Positions 10,192-22,520 of a DNA stretch of 64,000 nt are shown here, in pieces. The notes below the pieces were generated by a model. The model worked only from the letters and a program-made list of their open reading frames with translations, did not search any database and had not been told where the DNA came from. Source of the stretch: Dehalococcoidia bacterium. GTDB taxonomy: Bacteria > Chloroflexota > Dehalococcoidia > SpSt-223. Both the position numbers and the translations under genes were made by a program. Positions within the stretch are counted from its first letter, which is position 1, and the number at the start of each line of letters is the position of its first letter. The stretch lies in assembly GCA_025054935.1 (NCBI GenBank), contig JANWZD010000011.1:1-64000 (forward strand), read 5' to 3'.

Positions 10192-11802
10192 ATGGCGCCC
10201 TGGGTAGGCAGCGCCGGCGCTGCGCTCGCACTCGGCATCCTCCTCGTCGCAAGCGGTCTGTTTGTCCTCTTCATTGCGCCGCGTCCGCCGCTCTGGATGC
10301 TGTTCGGTCTTGCGCTCGCGCTCGCGGGGTTTTTGATCGCCCGCCGCGCCGAGTCGCGGGCGGCGCGCCTTGCGGGCTTTCTGCTTCCGATCGCCGGGCT
10401 CGGGTTCGCTGGCCTGTCACTCGGCTGGCTGATAGGGCTGTATGACCTGCGAGTGTGGCGCGACTATCTGTTGCTCAATCCGGTCGGCTTTGCCCTCGCG
10501 GCGCTCGGCGTCCTTGGGGCGGCGGCATTCATCCGCGAGGGAGCGCAGCTCCTCCTCGACCGCCAGTGGCGCGCGGGAACGATCTCGCTCAGCATCGGCG
10601 TGCTCGGCTTGCTGCTGCTCGGCGGGGCGGTGGTAGGCGTACTGCTGCGCAGCGTGGCGCTGATGACGCTGCTGGTGGTGGGAGCCGCGATCGTGGCAGT
10701 GATCGTCACGAGTGCCGCGTCAATCTTTGTCCAGCCCAGCAGTGTCGCCGCTGCCGCGGGGCCGCGCCTCCCAGGCGAAGTGCCGCTGCCGAGCGGAGGA
10801 AGCGCCCGGTGGCGGCAAGGGGCATTGCCGACGCCTGCTGCTCCCTCCTCTTCCCACGCGGACCCGCTCGCCTCCGCGCTGCGTCGTCCCGACCACGTCA
10901 CCGAGCTCGACCTCGCCGGCCGCGGGCTCACCGCTCTCTCCCCGGAGATCGGTCGGCTGCGCCATCTTCGGTCGCTTGACCTCGGCGAGAAACTGGGCCC
11001 CGACGACACTGTTCTCAGCAATCACCTGCGCAGCCTTCCCGCGACCGTTGGCGCCTTGCGCCAGCTCGAAACGCTCAACCTTGCCGCCAATGCCCTTGAC
11101 TCGTTACCCGAGGAGTTCGCATGGCTGGAGCGCCTGAGGCGGCTCGATCTCAGCTTCAACCGCCTGCGCGAGCTTCCTCCCGCGCTGCGCTCCCTCCGCT
11201 CTCTCGAAACGCTCCGCCTCGAGCGCAACAGACTCGAGGCGCTCCCCCCATGGCTCGGCGAGCTGCGGGCGCTGCGCACGCTCGTGCTCGCCGACAATCG
11301 GATCGCGGCGCTGCCCGACACTATCGGCGCGCTTGGCGCGCTGCGCACGCTCGATCTCTCCCACAACCAGCTGACCGCGCTGCCAGAGACCCTCGGCGAA
11401 CTCGAACACCTCGAAAGCCTCTCGCTTTACGCCAACCAAATTCGTGAGCTGCCGCGCTCCTTCGGTGCCCTCCGCGCGCTGCGGATGGTGGCCCTCGGCG
11501 GAAATCCGCTCGACCTCGAGCGTGTCCTCGCGCTCTTGGCGCAGCTGCCGGCACTCGAAACGCTTGATTTGCGGTCGGTCGGGGCGAGCGTGCTGCCAGC
11601 GACAATCGGGCGCTTCCCCGCTCTCCGGACGCTGATCCTTCGCGGCAACGCCCTCCAAACGCTTCCCGACACACTCGCCAATCTGACCACGCTCGAGGGC
11701 CTCGACCTTGCTCACAATCAGTTTCGGGAGGTGCCGGCGGTCACGCGCCGGCTGCCGCTGCGTCGGCTCGACCTTGACGGCAACCCGCTCGTCGTTCACT
11801 AA
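10192..11802 (+). CDS. membrane-anchored leucine-rich-repeat protein
   Basis: A 536-residue protein with two halves. The first 190 or so residues hold six hydrophobic segments (for example AGAALALGILLVASGLFVLF near the start and ALMTLLVVGAAIVAVIVTS as the sixth). After a Pro/Ala-rich linker, about eleven leucine-rich repeats of 23 residues follow, of the L..L.L..N.L..LP type (examples LETLNLAANALDSLPEEF, LRTLDLSHNQLTALPETL, LESLSLYANQIRELPRSF). Such repeats form a curved protein-binding surface; here it would be tethered to the membrane, most likely on the cytoplasmic side if the six-helix count holds. I start at ATG 10192; the open frame from 10123 adds unlikely residues. It stands alone between the repeat-rich spacer and a phosphatase gene. 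No enzymatic domain is seen, and the partner is unknown. Confidence 0.8.
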   Translation: MAPWVGSAGAALALGILLVASGLFVLFIAPRPPLWMLFGLALALAGFLIARRAESRAARLAGFLLPIAGLGFAGLSLGWLIGLYDLRVWRDYLLLNPVGFALAALGVLGAAAFIREGAQLLLDRQWRAGTISLSIGVLGLLLLGGAVVGVLLRSVALMTLLVVGAAIVAVIVTSAASIFVQPSSVAAAAGPRLPGEVPLPSGGSARWRQGALPTPAAPSSSHADPLASALRRPDHVTELDLAGRGLTALSPEIGRLRHLRSLDLGEKLGPDDTVLSNHLRSLPATVGALRQLETLNLAANALDSLPEEFAWLERLRRLDLSFNRLRELPPALRSLRSLETLRLERNRLEALPPWLGELRALRTLVLADNRIAALPDTIGALGALRTLDLSHNQLTALPETLGELEHLESLSLYANQIRELPRSFGALRALRMVALGGNPLDLERVLALLAQLPALETLDLRSVGASVLPATIGRFPALRTLILRGNALQTLPDTLANLTTLEGLDLAHNQFREVPAVTRRLPLRRLDLDGNPLVVH

Positions 11803-15898: not shown

Positions 15899-15947
15899 TT
15901 GACACTCGTCGATGAATTGGCTACGCTGCTTATCGACGCGTGTCGAT
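15899..15947 (+). promoter_or_regulatory. arsM promoter with palindromic operator
   Basis: TTGACA (15899-15904), a 17-base spacer and TACGCT (15922-15927) make a good sigma-70-type promoter. Just downstream, 15932-15947 is a perfect inverted repeat, ATCGAC-GCGT-GTCGAT. A matching half-site, CGTCGATG, lies in the spacer (15907-15914). A repressor bound to both would block the promoter. The likely binder is the ArsR protein encoded after arsM. Confidence 0.7.
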
Positions 15948-15974
15948 GTAGTTGCACGACGCAAAGGAGGGGCG

Positions 15975-16748
15975 ATGACGAAGGAAGACCAAGTGCGCGC
16001 GGCAGTCCGCGAGAAGTACGCCGCAGCGGCGCTCGCAGTGCTTGAGGCGGGGAGCGCGGCATGCTGCAGCAGCTCCTGCGGCGCTGAAGCAGGCACCGCG
16101 CTCTACCGGGCGGAGGATCTGCGCGATCTTCCCGCCGGGGCGGTGAACGCCTCGCTTGGCTGCGGCAACCCGACCGCTCTGATCGACCTCCGGCCGGGAG
16201 AGATTGTGCTCGACCTTGGCTCGGGCGGCGGGCTCGATGTCCTGCTGTCGGCGCGTCGGGTCGGCCCGACGGGCAAGGTGTACGGCGTTGACATGACCGA
16301 GGAGATGCTCGACCTGGCGCGGCGCAACGCGCGCGAGGCGGGCGCCGAGAATGTCGAGTTCCTGCGAGGAACGATCGAAGCGGTGCCGCTGCCGGACGCG
16401 AGCGTCGACGTCGTCATCTCGAATTGCGTGATCAACCTCTCGACGGACAAAGCGGCAGTCCTGCGCGAGGCGTTTCGGGTGCTTCGCCCGGGCGGCCGCT
16501 TCGCGGTGACCGACGTGGTGGTGCAGGGCCGCGCCTTCGGGCCGGCGACGGCCGAGGCGCTTGCGCTCTGGGCGGGCTGCATCGCCGGCGCTCTGCTCGA
16601 GGAGGAGTATCACCGCCTGCTGGCGGAGGCGGGCTTTGTCGACGTTGCGATCGAGGAGCTTGCCGAATATGGCAGAGGAAGCAGCCTTCAACTGGAGCCC
16701 GGGCAGCGCATCATCTCGGCCTTTGTTCGGGCGCGCAAGCCCCTTTGA
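15975..16748 (+). CDS. arsM: arsenite S-adenosylmethionine methyltransferase
   Basis: A 257-residue ArsM. It methylates arsenite using S-adenosylmethionine, giving methylated arsenicals that can be volatile. The SAM motif DLGSGGGLD is at 80-88. Conserved arsenic-binding cysteines correspond to C63 (LGCGNP), C151 (SNCVINL) and C202 (AGCIAG); further cysteines C30, C31 and C35 form an N-terminal ACCSSSCG cluster. ATG 15975 follows AAAGGAGG. It is followed at once by an arsR gene with its own promoter. The upstream operator suggests arsenic-induced expression. Confidence 0.92.
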
Positions 16749-16773
16749 CATGGGCGCGGCGGCGTCCTATGCT
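16745..16773 (+). promoter_or_regulatory. arsR promoter, TTGACA-17-TATGCT
   Basis: Consensus -35 TTGACA (16745-16750), exactly 17 bases, then TATGCT (16768-16773). The predicted transcription start falls at about 16780, which is the GTG of the arsR frame, so this transcript would be leaderless. It starts inside the last codons of arsM. Confidence 0.75.
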
Positions 16774-16779
16774 GAGCAA

Positions 16780-17160
16780 GTGAAGGAGCGGTCGCGCCGC
16801 CGAGCCTCGTCCGTCCGCCGCGCGCCGCACTGCTCACCGGCTCCGCCGGTTGCTGTGCCGACGGCGCTGATGCGTCTGCTCAAGGTGCTTGCCGACGAGA
16901 CGCGCCTGCAGCTGCTCGGCCAGATCGCGGCGGCCGGCGCGCCGATCTGCGTGTGCGATCTCACTGCCGGCGCGGCGGTCCATCAGCCGACTGTCTCCCA
17001 TCACCTGCGGCTGCTGCGCGAGGCCGGGCTCGTTGATGCGGTCCGGCGTGGTCAGTGGGCGTATTACTTTTTGCGCCCGGATCTCCCGCCGCTCGCGCGC
17101 GCCGTCATCGACGAGCTCCGCGCCGCTCACTCGCTTGGCTGCGACGCTCCCGGCACGTAG
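16780..17160 (+). CDS. arsR: ArsR-family metalloregulator
   Basis: A 126-residue winged-helix repressor that should release DNA on binding arsenite. The ICVCDL motif with C57 and C59 is the classical ArsR metal site at the start of the DNA-recognition region; the helix AVHQPTVSHHLRLLREAGLV follows. An ATG at 16750 is in frame but lies inside the -35 element, so I prefer the GTG at 16780, at the predicted transcription start. The N-terminal 25 residues are basic. The 3' end overlaps by 34 bases the end of a gene on the opposite strand. Likely targets are the operator before arsM and its own promoter. Confidence 0.88.
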   Translation: MKERSRRRASSVRRAPHCSPAPPVAVPTALMRLLKVLADETRLQLLGQIAAAGAPICVCDLTAGAAVHQPTVSHHLRLLREAGLVDAVRRGQWAYYFLRPDLPPLARAVIDELRAAHSLGCDAPGT

Positions 17161-17330
17161 CCGCCCTCGGTCAGCAGGCGCTCGACCGAGCGCGCGGAGA
17201 CGCGATAGGCTGTCTTTTTCTCGTCAATCGGCTCACCGTCGAGCCGGCCGGACCAAATCATCCGCCGCAGGTTCTCGCGCGTCACCATCAGGCGCTGGGC
17301 GGCTTCTTCCTCGGTCAGGTAGTCGCTCAT
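17127..17330 (-). CDS. small excisionase-like helix-turn-helix protein
   Basis: A 67-residue protein, MSDYLTEEEAAQRLMVT..., of the helix-turn-helix type found in excisionase/MerR-like small DNA-binding proteins; ending YRVSARSVERLLTEGG. ATG at 17330 has AGGAG six bases upstream. Its first 98 bases overlap the 3' end of the aquaporin gene in another frame, an unusually long overlap. Being last in the arsC-aquaporin operon, it may be a regulator of this island. Nothing else suggests an integrated element nearby. The role is inferred only from fold and place. Confidence 0.7.
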   Translation of the reverse strand: MSDYLTEEEAAQRLMVTRENLRRMIWSGRLDGEPIDEKKTAYRVSARSVERLLTEGGYVPGASQPSE

Positions 17331-18012
17331 GGGTCGCTCCTGTCTCATGTGGCGAGTATCGCCCGCGCAGGGCTTGATAGGCCAAGGCGCCGAGCGCGGC
17401 GCCGAGCACCGGGCCAAGGACGTAGATCCAGCCGTCGCTCCACACCCCGCCCACGATCGCCGGGCCGAGCGAGCGGGCGGGGTTCATCGAGGCGCCCGAG
17501 ACCGGACCGCCGAACAGCGCGGCGAGCGCCACGGTTCCCCCAATGGCGATCGCGGCTGCGTGGCCGACGGCGCGCGTGTCCGTCGCCACGGCCATGATGA
17601 CAAACATCAAGAGAAACGTGAGCACCACCTCCAGCGCGAGCGACTGGACTGCTGGCCCGCGTGGGGTCGTCGCGCCGAGGCCGGCGATGTCGCCGAGGAT
17701 CAGCCGAAGCAGCGTCGCCGCGAGCGTCGCGCCGGCGAGCTGAGCAAGCCAGTAGGCTGGGACGAGCCGGGGCGGGAAGTGCCGTGCGAGTGCGAAGGCG
17801 AGCGTCACCGCTGGATTGAGGTGCGCGCCCGACAGGTGGCCGGTCGCGTAGATCATCGCCATCACGATCAAGCCGAAGACGAGTGCCACGCCAAGGTGGG
17901 AGAGCGCGCCGCCGCTCGCAGCGTTCACCATGATCGCGCCGCAGCCGGCAAAGACGAGCAACGCCGTGCCGAGCAGCTCGGCGCCGCAGCGCCGCCAGTC
18001 GTCGCCCGTCAT
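17233..18012 (-). CDS. aquaporin/glycerol facilitator, probably arsenite channel
   Basis: A 259-residue MIP-family channel with six membrane segments and the two selectivity loops HLNPAVT (NPA at 66-68) and SMNPARS (NPA at 177-179). Beside arsC it resembles AqpS of rhizobial ars operons, which lets arsenite produced by the reductase leave the cell by diffusion. The membrane core ends near residue 218 (QALRGRY); the last 40 residues are Arg/Asp/Pro-rich and run through the start of the downstream HTH gene. A single-base shift there would give an early stop, so this tail may be the product of a frameshift. Its ATG overlaps the arsC stop by 4 bases. Confidence 0.88.
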   Translation of the reverse strand: MTGDDWRRCGAELLGTALLVFAGCGAIMVNAASGGALSHLGVALVFGLIVMAMIYATGHLSGAHLNPAVTLAFALARHFPPRLVPAYWLAQLAGATLAATLLRLILGDIAGLGATTPRGPAVQSLALEVVLTFLLMFVIMAVATDTRAVGHAAAIAIGGTVALAALFGGPVSGASMNPARSLGPAIVGGVWSDGWIYVLGPVLGAALGALAYQALRGRYSPHETGATHERLPDRGRSRPAPDGDAREPAADDLVRPARR

Positions 18013-18443
18013 GCTCGAACCGGACGATTCACGTTCACAAAGAGGCTGACCCGCTGCCGGATCTCCTCGCGCACGCGCCGAAACGTCCGCAGCCGCTCTT
18101 CTTCCGTGAGGGCGGGGTCGGCGGGGTCATCGAAGCTCCAATGAATGCGCTTCGTATCACTCGGGAAGACCGGACAGCTCTCCTTGGCGCGGTCACAGAC
18201 CGTGATGACGAAATCCCACGGCTCGTTGAGGAACTGGCTGAGATGTTTCGACTCTTGGCGCGAGACGTCGATCCCCGCTTCGCGCATCACGACGACGGTG
18301 AGAGGGTGCAGCCCTTTCGGCTCGGTGCCGGCAGAGTAGGCGGCAAAGTCGTCGCCGCCCAGCTCCCGCAGCCACGCCTCCGCCATTTGGCTGCGCGCAG
18401 AGTTGCCGGTGCAGAGAAAGAGAACCTTCTTTGGTGTGGGCAT
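18009..18443 (-). CDS. arsC: thioredoxin-type arsenate reductase
   Basis: A 144-residue reductase with the low-molecular-weight phosphatase fold. Arsenate binds the P-loop CTGNSARS (C11, R17), and the redox cysteines C83 and C90 (CDRAKESC) complete the three-cysteine relay regenerated by thioredoxin. The product, arsenite, would leave by the coupled aquaporin. It is transcribed away from the ArsR-ArsC fusion gene; the 73-base gap between them has an ArsR-type operator. The start codon at 18443 is preceded by AGGAAAGGGGG on its own strand. Confidence 0.93.
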   Translation of the reverse strand: MPTPKKVLFLCTGNSARSQMAEAWLRELGGDDFAAYSAGTEPKGLHPLTVVVMREAGIDVSRQESKHLSQFLNEPWDFVITVCDRAKESCPVFPSDTKRIHWSFDDPADPALTEEERLRTFRRVREEIRQRVSLFVNVNRPVRA

Positions 18444-18472
18444 CGGCTGCCCCCTTTCCTAGGAGATGACGC

Positions 18473-18496
18473 TAGAATGTATCAAATCAGATTGAT
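18473..18496. promoter_or_regulatory. divergent ArsR-type operator with -10 box
   Basis: ATCAA-ATCAGA-TTGAT (18481-18496) is an inverted repeat of the kind bound by ArsR/SmtB proteins. A TAGAAT hexamer (18473-18478) just before it could be the -10 element for the rightward fusion gene. The site lies midway between arsC and the fusion gene, so one operator may control both directions. It differs in sequence from the ATCGAC operator before arsM. Confidence 0.65.
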
Positions 18497-18516
18497 GGAG
18501 TGAGGATCAAGAGGGC

Positions 18517-19209
18517 ATGACCCCAGCGGGCGCGCCGGCAGTGCTCAAGCTGCTGGCTGATGACCTGCGCTGGCGTATTGCCGGCGAACTGCGCTGGACA
18601 GACCGCACCGTCCGCGAGCTGGTGGAGCAGCTTGGCGTGCCTCAGAACCTCGTCTCGTACCATCTTGGGCTGCTGCGCGCCGGCGGGCTGGTGCGCGCCC
18701 ATCGCTCGGATGCTGATGGCCGCGCGACCTACTATGCGCTTGACGCGGCGGCGCTGGATGCTGCGCTCGCTGGCCTCACGCGTCAACTGAGTGCGCCGCC
18801 CCCGCTGTCGAACGTCGCCTTTGTCTGCACGCACAATCAGGCGCGTTCCCAGATGGCCGAAGGATGGTTTCGCCATTTGGTCGGTGCCGCAGCGCGCGTG
18901 CGGAGCGCAGGTGTCGACCCCCGACCGCTGCACCCGCTTGCGATCCGCGTCATGGCTGAGGCGGGCATCGACATCAGCGGCCAGCGGTCGAACGGGCTGG
19001 ATGCCCTGCTTGACGACCCGCCGGAGCTGGTTATCACTGTTTGCGACCGCGCTCGCGAAGCGTGTCCGCCAGCGCTCGGCGTCCGCCAGCTCCACTGGAG
19101 CATCCCCTCGCCTGTCGACGCGCCGGCCGAGGAGCGTCTCGCCGCCTTTCGCCGGGCGCGCGAGGAGATCCGCGAGCGAGTGGCCCGCCTCGTCGCGCTA
19201 GTATCCTGA
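18517..19209 (+). CDS. ArsR regulator fused to ArsC-like reductase domain
   Basis: A 230-residue two-domain protein. Residues 5-90 are a winged-helix DNA-binding domain of ArsR type (VSYHLGLLRAGGLVRAHR helix-wing region), without the CVC motif of the other ArsR. Residues 98-230 form a complete LMW-phosphatase/arsenate reductase domain: P-loop CTHNQARS with C104, and CDRAREAC with C176 and C183. All residues of the catalytic relay are therefore kept. Such fusions are known in some bacteria; the reductase part may act as sensor, enzyme or both. It is divergent from arsC across an ATCAA/TTGAT operator. ATG 18517 follows AAGAGGG. Confidence 0.87.
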   Translation: MTPAGAPAVLKLLADDLRWRIAGELRWTDRTVRELVEQLGVPQNLVSYHLGLLRAGGLVRAHRSDADGRATYYALDAAALDAALAGLTRQLSAPPPLSNVAFVCTHNQARSQMAEGWFRHLVGAAARVRSAGVDPRPLHPLAIRVMAEAGIDISGQRSNGLDALLDDPPELVITVCDRAREACPPALGVRQLHWSIPSPVDAPAEERLAAFRRAREEIRERVARLVALVS

Positions 19210-19223
19210 CGAGGGAGGTGCCA

Positions 19224-19625
19224 ATGGGAACGCAGCGGCTGATCTGGCGCGATGGCGTCCGCTTTACCGGCATCGACTCTTGGGGGCACACGGTCGAGAT
19301 CGGCGGCGACGAACAGGGAAGCGGCCTGAAGCCCTCTGACCTTGTGCCGCTGGCACTTGCCGCTTGCACTGCCTACGACGTCGTCACCATCTTGACCAAA
19401 CAGCGGCAACAGTTGCGCGGCTTCGAGGCGCAGATCGAGACGACGCAGGACGACCAGCCGCCGTGGGCGTTCCGCCGCATCGCCGTTCACTTCACGCTCC
19501 GCGGCGCGGTCGACCCGAAGAAGGCCGCCAAGGCGATTGCCCTCGCCGAGCGCTCCTACTGCTCGGTCGCCGCTACCCTCCGCCCGACGGTCGAGCTCGC
19601 TTTCACCTTCGAGGTGACCGCCTAG
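19224..19625 (+). CDS. OsmC-family thiol peroxidase-like protein
   Basis: A 133-residue OsmC/Ohr-family protein; the two reactive cysteines are C48 (LAACTAYD) and C113 (SYCSVAAT), matching the family's peroxidatic and resolving positions. Members reduce organic hydroperoxides or act in stress responses. ATG 19224 follows GAGGGAGG, 14 bases after the stop of the ArsR-ArsC fusion, so it is probably in the same transcript and may relieve arsenic-induced oxidative stress (inference). Confidence 0.82.
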   Translation: MGTQRLIWRDGVRFTGIDSWGHTVEIGGDEQGSGLKPSDLVPLALAACTAYDVVTILTKQRQQLRGFEAQIETTQDDQPPWAFRRIAVHFTLRGAVDPKKAAKAIALAERSYCSVAATLRPTVELAFTFEVTA

Positions 19626-20872: not shown

Positions 20873-21395
20873 GCTGGCGGCGCCCCGGCCGGGACCTTAG
20901 CAGCCGCATGCCCATGCCGCGTCCAAGAAGGCGCGGCGCAGCCGGCGGGAAAGCGGCTGTGTCGCCTCGGTCAGGCGAGGCGGCGGACGCGAGGGACGAA
21001 GAGGAACATCAGCAGCCTGTGCCGGCTGAGGACAGCGTGTTCCGTGTCGCCGTTTGGGTGAACTGTGGCGCAAGCATGCCTCCCGGCCGCCGCGGCGCCA
21101 GCAGCGGTCTAGTCTGGCCGCGCAGCATTCGCCGACGCGGGGGAGCGGGGATCGCCCATCCGCTGCAAGCGTGGGGCTGCTGCCAGCGCACCATCCCTTC
21201 CTAGGAACCCCGTGAAAGCGACGTGCTGTTCTCGCTGGCGCTCTGGGTCTGCGCCGCTCGTCCGGCGAACCGCGGCCGCATCCCAGCACCTAGTATTCTT
21301 TGGCTGAACGAGCGTGGCGGCGCGATCTCCTCTTGGGGCCCGACCATGTCAGGCAGAGAGGCGAGCAAAGCCGCCCCGTTGCACGAGGAGTCCAC
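20873..21395. other. gene-free spacer
   Basis: About 520 bases between the monooxygenase and the CARF gene, with only low-quality open frames. TAGTAT/TATTCT (21291-21299) is a possible -10 region but no -35 partner fits. No CRISPR-like repeat is present in it. Confidence 0.45.
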
Positions 21396-22520
21396 ATGCT
21401 GCCTCGCGATACCGTGATCTGCACTGTTGGCACCAGTCTCTTCTTCAATCTGCGGACAGCGCCTGAAGTGCCGCCCCGCATCCAGTCCGCTTTCCAAGGA
21501 ACGGAGTGGGAACGTCTCGGGCAAGAACTTGCCAAGCTCGAGCCGCGCGATCGGCTTTGCGGCGCCGAGATCAACACTCTCGAGGAACTCCGCACCAAGT
21601 CGTGGATCAGCCTAGAGCGGATCATCTTCCTCGTCTCAGACACTGAAGAAGGCCGGGCGATGGGACGGGTTTTGACGGCGTACTTCAAGGCGCGGCGGGA
21701 CATCGGCATCCGGGCTGACGCTCTCATTTATCGCGTAATCGAAGGGCTGCAGGATGAGCGTCCGCGCGAATTCAAGGCGCAAGGTCTCCGCAACCTCGTG
21801 CGGGAGATCGGCGCTCAAGTCCAGAAGTTCGGCCACGACCGCGTTGTTGTCGACGCCACAGGGGGCTACAAAGCGCAAATCGCGATCGCGGTCATCATGG
21901 GCCAAGTGCTCAACATTCCGGTCCTCTACAAGCATGAGCGGTTTTCGGAGATCATCGACTTTCCGCCGCTGCCGGTCGCATTCGACTACGACTTTCTCGG
22001 CAGTCAGGCTGACCTGCTGGTCGCGTTCGAACGTGGCGCGCTGCTGACGGCGACGGAGCTCGGCGAAGTCGATGAGAAGCTGCGCGTTCTTCTGAATGAG
22101 GTCGACATCGACGGTGAGACTGCGTTCGATCTCAGCCCAGTCGGCCAGATCTATCTCATGGGCTATCGGCTCCGCCTGCCGAAGCAGGCGCCGACCCTGA
22201 CACCAGCCAGCAGCCGAACGCCGCCGTCGTTCGGCTCCCACCACTATCCGCGCGGCTTCGAGGACTTCGTCAAGAAGGTCTGGACAGAGAACGGCTGGAT
22301 CCAGACAATCCATTCCTTGCCCTATGAGGGGCAGGCGCAAATTCGCAAGGGCATCAGCTTCCGCGTCCAGCAGGTCAACGGCGAGCCGGCGCTCGTTGGC
22401 TCGTTCAAGCCCGATGACTTTGGCGCTCGCTTCCGGGTTCGGCTGGAGAACGAACAGCCGGCGGTGCTCAGCGCGGCCGCTGTCGCTCTGAACGATCGCT
22501 ACCAGCCCGCGCCGCGCTGA
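21396..22520 (+). CDS. orphan CARF-domain protein (APE2256/Csm6-like superfamily)
   Basis: A 374-residue protein. The N-terminal half has the CARF-type layout of the APE2256-like CRISPR-associated family: a first strand ending TVGTSLFFNLR (about 10-20) and, after a long helical insertion, DATGGYKAQIAIAVIMG (about 153-169), which resembles the cyclic-oligoadenylate-binding loop. Helix-rich middle regions follow (about 190-265). The C-terminal 90 residues (from YPRGFEDFVKKVW, near 284) end in a GARFRVRLENEQPAVLSAAAV strand pair and NDRY, which by eye recalls the RelE/ParE toxin fold; no HEPN R-X4-6-H motif is present. No cas gene or array lies in the window. ATG 21396 follows CGAGGAG. The effector assignment is tentative. 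Confidence 0.7.
   Translation: MLPRDTVICTVGTSLFFNLRTAPEVPPRIQSAFQGTEWERLGQELAKLEPRDRLCGAEINTLEELRTKSWISLERIIFLVSDTEEGRAMGRVLTAYFKARRDIGIRADALIYRVIEGLQDERPREFKAQGLRNLVREIGAQVQKFGHDRVVVDATGGYKAQIAIAVIMGQVLNIPVLYKHERFSEIIDFPPLPVAFDYDFLGSQADLLVAFERGALLTATELGEVDEKLRVLLNEVDIDGETAFDLSPVGQIYLMGYRLRLPKQAPTLTPASSRTPPSFGSHHYPRGFEDFVKKVWTENGWIQTIHSLPYEGQAQIRKGISFRVQQVNGEPALVGSFKPDDFGARFRVRLENEQPAVLSAAAVALNDRYQPAPR

Follow-up and report, generated by a model that had tools for sequence, protein, structure and literature searches.

Among CARF7 proteins, SyCsm6 of Synechocystis was found to elute as a dimer and to possess ring-nuclease but no RNase activity in vitro; a K167A variant was also tested and treated as a putatively inactive form (PMC9676260). 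Menshen, another antiphage system that bears on the present work, is described in a review as having a DUF262 gene and an OLD nuclease, the latter predicted (PMC10952713), and polymorphism of its domains is the subject of a 2025 paper cited in PMC12704722. By sequence, the closest relatives of solved structure to the protein described here are Cami1 and the Sis0811/SSO1393 ring nucleases, the resemblance lying over the CARF part.

The window, that is, the whole 64-kb stretch of DNA analyzed, carries on its forward strand an ORF of 374 amino acids that begins with an ATG at 21396, preceded at a distance of 5 nt by the sequence GAGGAG (Table 1). Nearly the entire protein aligns with the PADLOC model PDLC01930, "CARF7--CARF_DUF2103", over positions 2-353 of the 353 in the profile. 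The class is already catalogued under this name; the window protein is a new member of it. Searches by tblastn returned no viral relative of the protein from phage records or IMG/VR, and a viral origin was rejected on these grounds.

Table 1. Positions, in the window, of the CARF7 gene and of the features assigned to it.
Feature	Position	Strand	Basis
CARF7 effector gene, stop included	21396..22520	+	PADLOC PDLC01930, 2.9e-97, residues 4-370
Likely ribosome-binding site, GAGGAG	21385..21390	+	Direct sequence reading
CARF domain, residues 1-192	21396..21971	+	Pfam; profile match to PDB Cami1/Sis0811; AlphaFold model
Ser14 codon, GTSL motif	21435..21437	+	34/34 aligned sequences; alignment to 7pq2 and S12A entry 7pq6
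Lys159 codon, DATGGYKA	21870..21872	+	34/34 aligned sequences; alignment to 7pq2
Linker, residues 193-269, short helices and beta hairpin	21972..22202	+	AlphaFold secondary structure
C-terminal effector domain (predicted), residues 270-374, alpha-beta4-alpha	22203..22517	+	Predicted models, conservation

The preliminary description of this DNA had read a CARF-type N-terminus from the motifs TVGTSL and DATGGYKA. This reading was confirmed by Pfam, NCBIfam, the predicted structure and the conserved ligand-site residues, all of which agree. Residues 54-192 matched the Pfam family Cas_APE2256 (3.8e-30; 105 bits, the cut-off being 24.8), the sole Pfam match of the protein, and NCBIfam TIGR02619 was matched at 1.3e-15. 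The profile match to the PDB sequences of Cami1 and Sis0811 starts at the first strand of the CARF domain, and the linker region is still common to Cami1. An AlphaFold2 model of the full protein, built on an alignment of 34 sequences (mean pLDDT 91.5), supports a CARF fold in the N-terminal part. Both motifs of the CARF7 ligand site, GTS and ATGGxK, are present, and residues G12, S14, E58, T155, G156, G157 and K159 are identical in 34 of the 34 aligned sequences. In the alignment with Sis0811, S14 and K159 fall opposite S12 and K169, which are mutated in PDB entries 7pq6 and 7pqa; as judged from this alignment, Ser14 is the equivalent of the ring-nuclease residue Ser12, and Lys159 that of Lys169. 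The protein gave no match to any HEPN family, in keeping with the earlier remark that a HEPN signature is missing.

When the C-terminal domain was modelled alone, AlphaFold predicted the order alpha-beta-beta-beta-beta-alpha with a mean pLDDT of 89.9. A PDB fold search with this model yielded no match at E < 0.1, and the best match among viral models had an E value of 0.01. In a PADLOC scan, the C-terminus alone (22086-22517) was recognized only by two CARF_DUF2103 models, PDLC01930 scoring 1.2e-11. The domain is widespread, occurring in Chloroflexota, Cyanobacteriota, Spirochaetota, Planctomycetota and proteobacterial lineages, and residues H283 (part of an HHYP motif), P285, W296, T304, F322, R345 and F346 are invariant in all ten members of the subclade to which the window protein belongs. 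We know of no biochemical work on a CARF7 member with an alpha-beta4-alpha tail. The DUF2103 label of the PADLOC models could not be reproduced: Pfam returned no match on the domain, PF09876 (DUF2103) included; a PF09876 search of the genome gave no match at the CARF7 gene; and hhalign comparisons with four PF09876 proteins gave non-significant probabilities of 0.1-1.6%. By eye, the two families are alike in having a histidine before a helix and a beta sheet thereafter.

The C-terminal domain had initially been likened to RelE toxins on account of a strand pair and a terminal tyrosine. Were this correct, the window protein would be a Cami1-type CARF-RelE mRNA interferase, an idea to which several observations lend some credit. 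The CARF domain is nearest to Cami1 in the PDB, the CARF part scores 1.4e-51 with the PADLOC CARF_RelE models, and a Foldseek alignment of the full model to Cami1 spans about 400 columns. However, the rmsd of this superposition is 12.7, and the match to the CARF_RelE model PDLC01033 stops at residue 278, position 209 of the 294 in the profile, whereas the matches of true Cami1 and of homologue L054 run to positions 292 and 284, respectively. For some members of the family, both cyanobacterial and other (L030, L031), the PDLC01033 match does continue into the tail. Scanned alone, the C-terminus of the window protein matched no RelE model at E values up to 10, nor any Pfam family, and RelE was absent from the 50 best PDB matches of the predicted domain, in a fold search run without a RelE positive control. 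Profile-profile comparison of the window tail family with RelE-type CARF7 tails gave a probability of about 0.1%. This comparison has little power, for a control pairing of Cami1 with L054-type tails likewise gave a low value (1.8%); it is chiefly the profile scans and the fold that lead us to reject RelE. The RelE fold begins with a beta-alpha-alpha element that is absent from the four-stranded alpha-beta4-alpha domain predicted here. As for the tyrosine, Tyr369 lies at the end of the last helix and is not a conserved residue: of the 34 sequences, 17 have Y at this position, 10 F, 5 L and 2 I. A CARF-RelE interferase thus appears quite unlikely, and the RelE assignment had to be abandoned.

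When 84,980 species genomes were scanned, 39 homologues came up. Seven of these stand closest, being 43-70% identical over nearly the whole length; they come from assemblies labelled Dehalococcoidia, Competibacteraceae, Spirochaetales, Deltaproteobacteria, Anaerolineae, Brachyspira and Symbiobacterium. In a tree, the window protein groups with L020, L021 and L024, well apart from Cami1 and the other RelE-type members. A Cas10 palm was found in 36 of the 39 homologue genomes and RAMPs in 38, the three genomes without a Cas10 palm match all having a RAMP match. At a threshold of 1e-5, the palm was detected in 35 of 39 genomes versus 110 of 400 sampled Chloroflexota genomes (Fisher p 1.6e-14), a comparison across different phyla that serves as a guide only. 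Type III genes lie within 10 kb of 24 of the 37 homologues that could be mapped. Such adjacency is rarer in the subclade of the window protein than in the whole family: most close members are on contigs without a type III gene, several of these contigs being short or carrying the CARF7 gene near an end. Within the subclade, L021 lies directly after a Cmr operon with Cas10, and the Anaerolineae relative L024 is part of a cassette at a contig end (109-2430) comprising a Cas_NE0113/CARF3 gene, the CARF7 effector and csx15. Two members of the spirochaete clade share a gene of about 170 amino acids directly upstream of the CARF gene (L022:9412-9915 and L025:492-1007), for which no Pfam or PADLOC match was found, as well as the order of the downstream genes.

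The gene had been described as solitary and as an orphan. Within the window the first point stands: a profile search detected no Cas10 or RAMP match on the contig of the gene, and a repeat search, like Rfam, revealed no CRISPR-like array in the 64 kb. A 25-nt repeat, CGTAGCTCAGGCGCATGCGAGGGAT, occurs in two perfect copies with a spacing of 61 nt (884-969), just after the frame of a short holin-like membrane protein near the contig start. The pair looked CRISPR-like and was rejected as an array, two copies being too few. Elsewhere in the window, positions 15900-19600 hold what looks by eye like an arsenic-resistance cluster, with an ArsM-like methyltransferase, ArsR-like regulators, an aquaporin-like channel, two ArsC-like phosphatases and an OsmC-like protein.

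At the level of the genome the orphan status had to be rejected. What was expected to overturn it was the discovery of a type III locus immediately beyond the window; a genome-wide search uncovered two type III loci in the same assembly, but both on another contig, C1. The type III-B locus (C1 2189-10224) encodes Cmr1, Cas10, Cmr3, a RAMP protein, Cmr6 and a CARF-HEPN protein of the Csx1 type. Its Cas10 (C1 3571-5355) reads LIYSGGDDVLAILP, with GGDD present, indicating that the cyclase motif is intact. The type III-A locus (C1, about 422.9-428.9 kb) has the order Csm3-Csm4-Csm5-Cas10; its Cas10 (L010:12659-14890, about 427 kb on C1) has an HD motif and, by eye, the palm sequence HWSADGITCL in place of GGDD. 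Lacking GGDD, this second Cas10 probably makes no cyclic oligoadenylate, which would leave the III-B enzyme as the sole maker. A small gene adjoining the III-A locus (L010:15911-16150) contains four 60-bp in-frame repeats of the glycine-rich KGG type, and a lone weak RAMP-family match (31 bits) was seen away from other cas genes at C5:150947-151588.

The CARF7 gene and a Cas10 palm also occur together in a second genome of the genus, Dehalococcoidia bacterium KatS3mg060, whereas a third genome has neither and keeps two RAMP matches. The usual type III adjacency is absent from both genomes that have the gene, the CARF7 gene and Cas10 being on different contigs. In KatS3mg060 the gene is about 500 kb from either contig end, with the Cas10 genes on other contigs, and has kept as neighbours the genes of the FAD-binding monooxygenase and the HD-GYP protein (89-90% identity). 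Since the gene of this sister genome is truly far from Cas10, the window protein would act in trans.

We therefore favour the view, with a probability of about 0.72, that the window protein serves type III CRISPR signalling as a stand-alone effector, activated by cyclic oligoadenylate, acting in trans and self-limiting. Several of its features are inferred, namely its ligand, its dimerisation, its action in trans, the self-limiting cleavage and the toxicity; they would fit together as follows. On sensing foreign RNA, the type III-B complex would make cyclic oligoadenylate through its Cas10, the one with the intact GGDD. A dimer of the protein would bind this molecule, most likely cA4 by analogy with Cami1 and Sis0811, in the pocket that its CARF domain forms around GTSL and ATGGYK. 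The bound ligand would activate the C-terminal alpha-beta4-alpha domain, which would then harm the cell or the phage, and Ser14 and Lys159 would slowly cut the ring, turning the response off. Within this effector explanation, our preferred guess for the domain, held at about even odds, is a toxin directed at RNA or translation, because RelE holds the same position in Cami1-type proteins and an NsnC model appears to carry the domain (see below). Counting against a type III effector are the lack of any adjoining cas gene in the genus and the neighbouring HD-GYP gene, which leaves room for another nucleotide signal.

Two other explanations retain the CARF sensor and differ in what follows from it. 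The protein could be chiefly a ring nuclease, or cyclic oligoadenylate buffer, clearing the product of the III-B Cas10, with the C-terminal domain playing a structural part. The invariance of Ser14 and Lys159 in all 34 sequences and their match to Ser12 and Lys169 of Sis0811 speak for this possibility, as does the in vitro behaviour of SyCsm6 described above. Yet the C-terminal domain is conserved across phyla, H283, W296, T304 and R345 being among the residues found in 10 of 10 subclade members, and sister proteins carry RelE at the corresponding place; an effector fits these facts better than a structural element does, and we consider a mere ring nuclease unlikely. It had further been suggested that an orphan CARF protein might answer a signal nucleotide of non-CRISPR origin, one not made by Cas10. 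The solitary, syntenic, housekeeping-like location kept between two members of the genus would suit such a role, and so would the HD-GYP neighbour. With a Cas10 of intact GGDD in the genome and a family strongly associated with type III systems, however, a non-CRISPR signal is not needed, and we regard this explanation as very improbable. The type III effector thus remains our preferred reading.

A further lead on the C-terminal domain came from Menshen. In the cyanobacterial member L030, the C-terminal part (10691-11110) corresponds to positions 169-280 of the NsnC model PDLC03895 (1.3e-33), and the same stretch also matches PDLC01930, the model that recognizes the window tail. By way of these cyanobacterial relatives, the window protein and one Menshen NsnC model appear, from sequence comparison, to have the same C-terminal domain. 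In other NsnC proteins the match to PDLC03895 covers positions 1-182 only, and a different tail follows, which looks RelE/HigB-like by eye only. In samples from three phyla, no natural full-length protein was found to unite the two halves of PDLC03895, so that the fusion rests on the model itself. The NsnC N-terminal part is absent from the window protein, and NsnA and NsnB are absent from its neighbourhood, where the genes are unrelated. Nevertheless, the effector position of CARF7 proteins appears to be filled by either RelE or the alpha-beta4-alpha domain, and that of NsnC by the alpha-beta4-alpha domain or another tail. Such a pattern of exchange does not prove that the functions are equivalent. 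We tentatively raise the possibility, which we hold to be somewhat doubtful, that the domain is a non-RelE effector module plugged into two unrelated antiphage systems, CARF7 and Menshen NsnC, each with alternative tails. If true, the module would be a toxin interchangeable with RelE, one that may reach the same kind of target by different chemistry, and the activity of the shared domain would explain effectors of two defence systems at once. The present case also illustrates that a CARF gene with an orphan look in 64 kb can share its genome with a type III system that is cyclase-competent and encoded elsewhere, and it corrects a plausible RelE call as unsupported.

Compared with known systems, the window protein resembles Menshen NsnC (PDLC03895) in that positions 169-280 of the latter match the C-terminal domain of cyanobacterial family members; NsnC differs in its N-terminal part and works with NsnA and NsnB, and the window protein is linked to it only through its relatives. 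Sis0811 and SSO1393 have the CARF fold and the catalytic Ser and Lys in common with it, but are shorter (chains of 275-324 amino acids) and are described as ring nucleases without the effector domain seen here. SyCsm6 (Sll7062), compared by description only, shares the CARF7 sensor, a non-HEPN tail and the ring-nuclease lysine; unlike the window gene, its gene is encoded in the CRISPR2 (III-D) operon, and the protein is described as RelE-like (PMC9676260). Cami1 of Allochromatium vinosum (8phb, 8phj) is alike in its CARF7 sensor, linker and ligand-site motifs (GTS and TGGFK), whereas the window C-terminal domain is without RelE similarity and the Cami1 gene lies directly before cmr1. Finally, members of the PDLC01930/01931/01932 class elsewhere are mostly found inside type III loci, whereas the window gene stands separate from them; with this class the window protein shares a whole-length match, the same order of domains and the association with type III systems.
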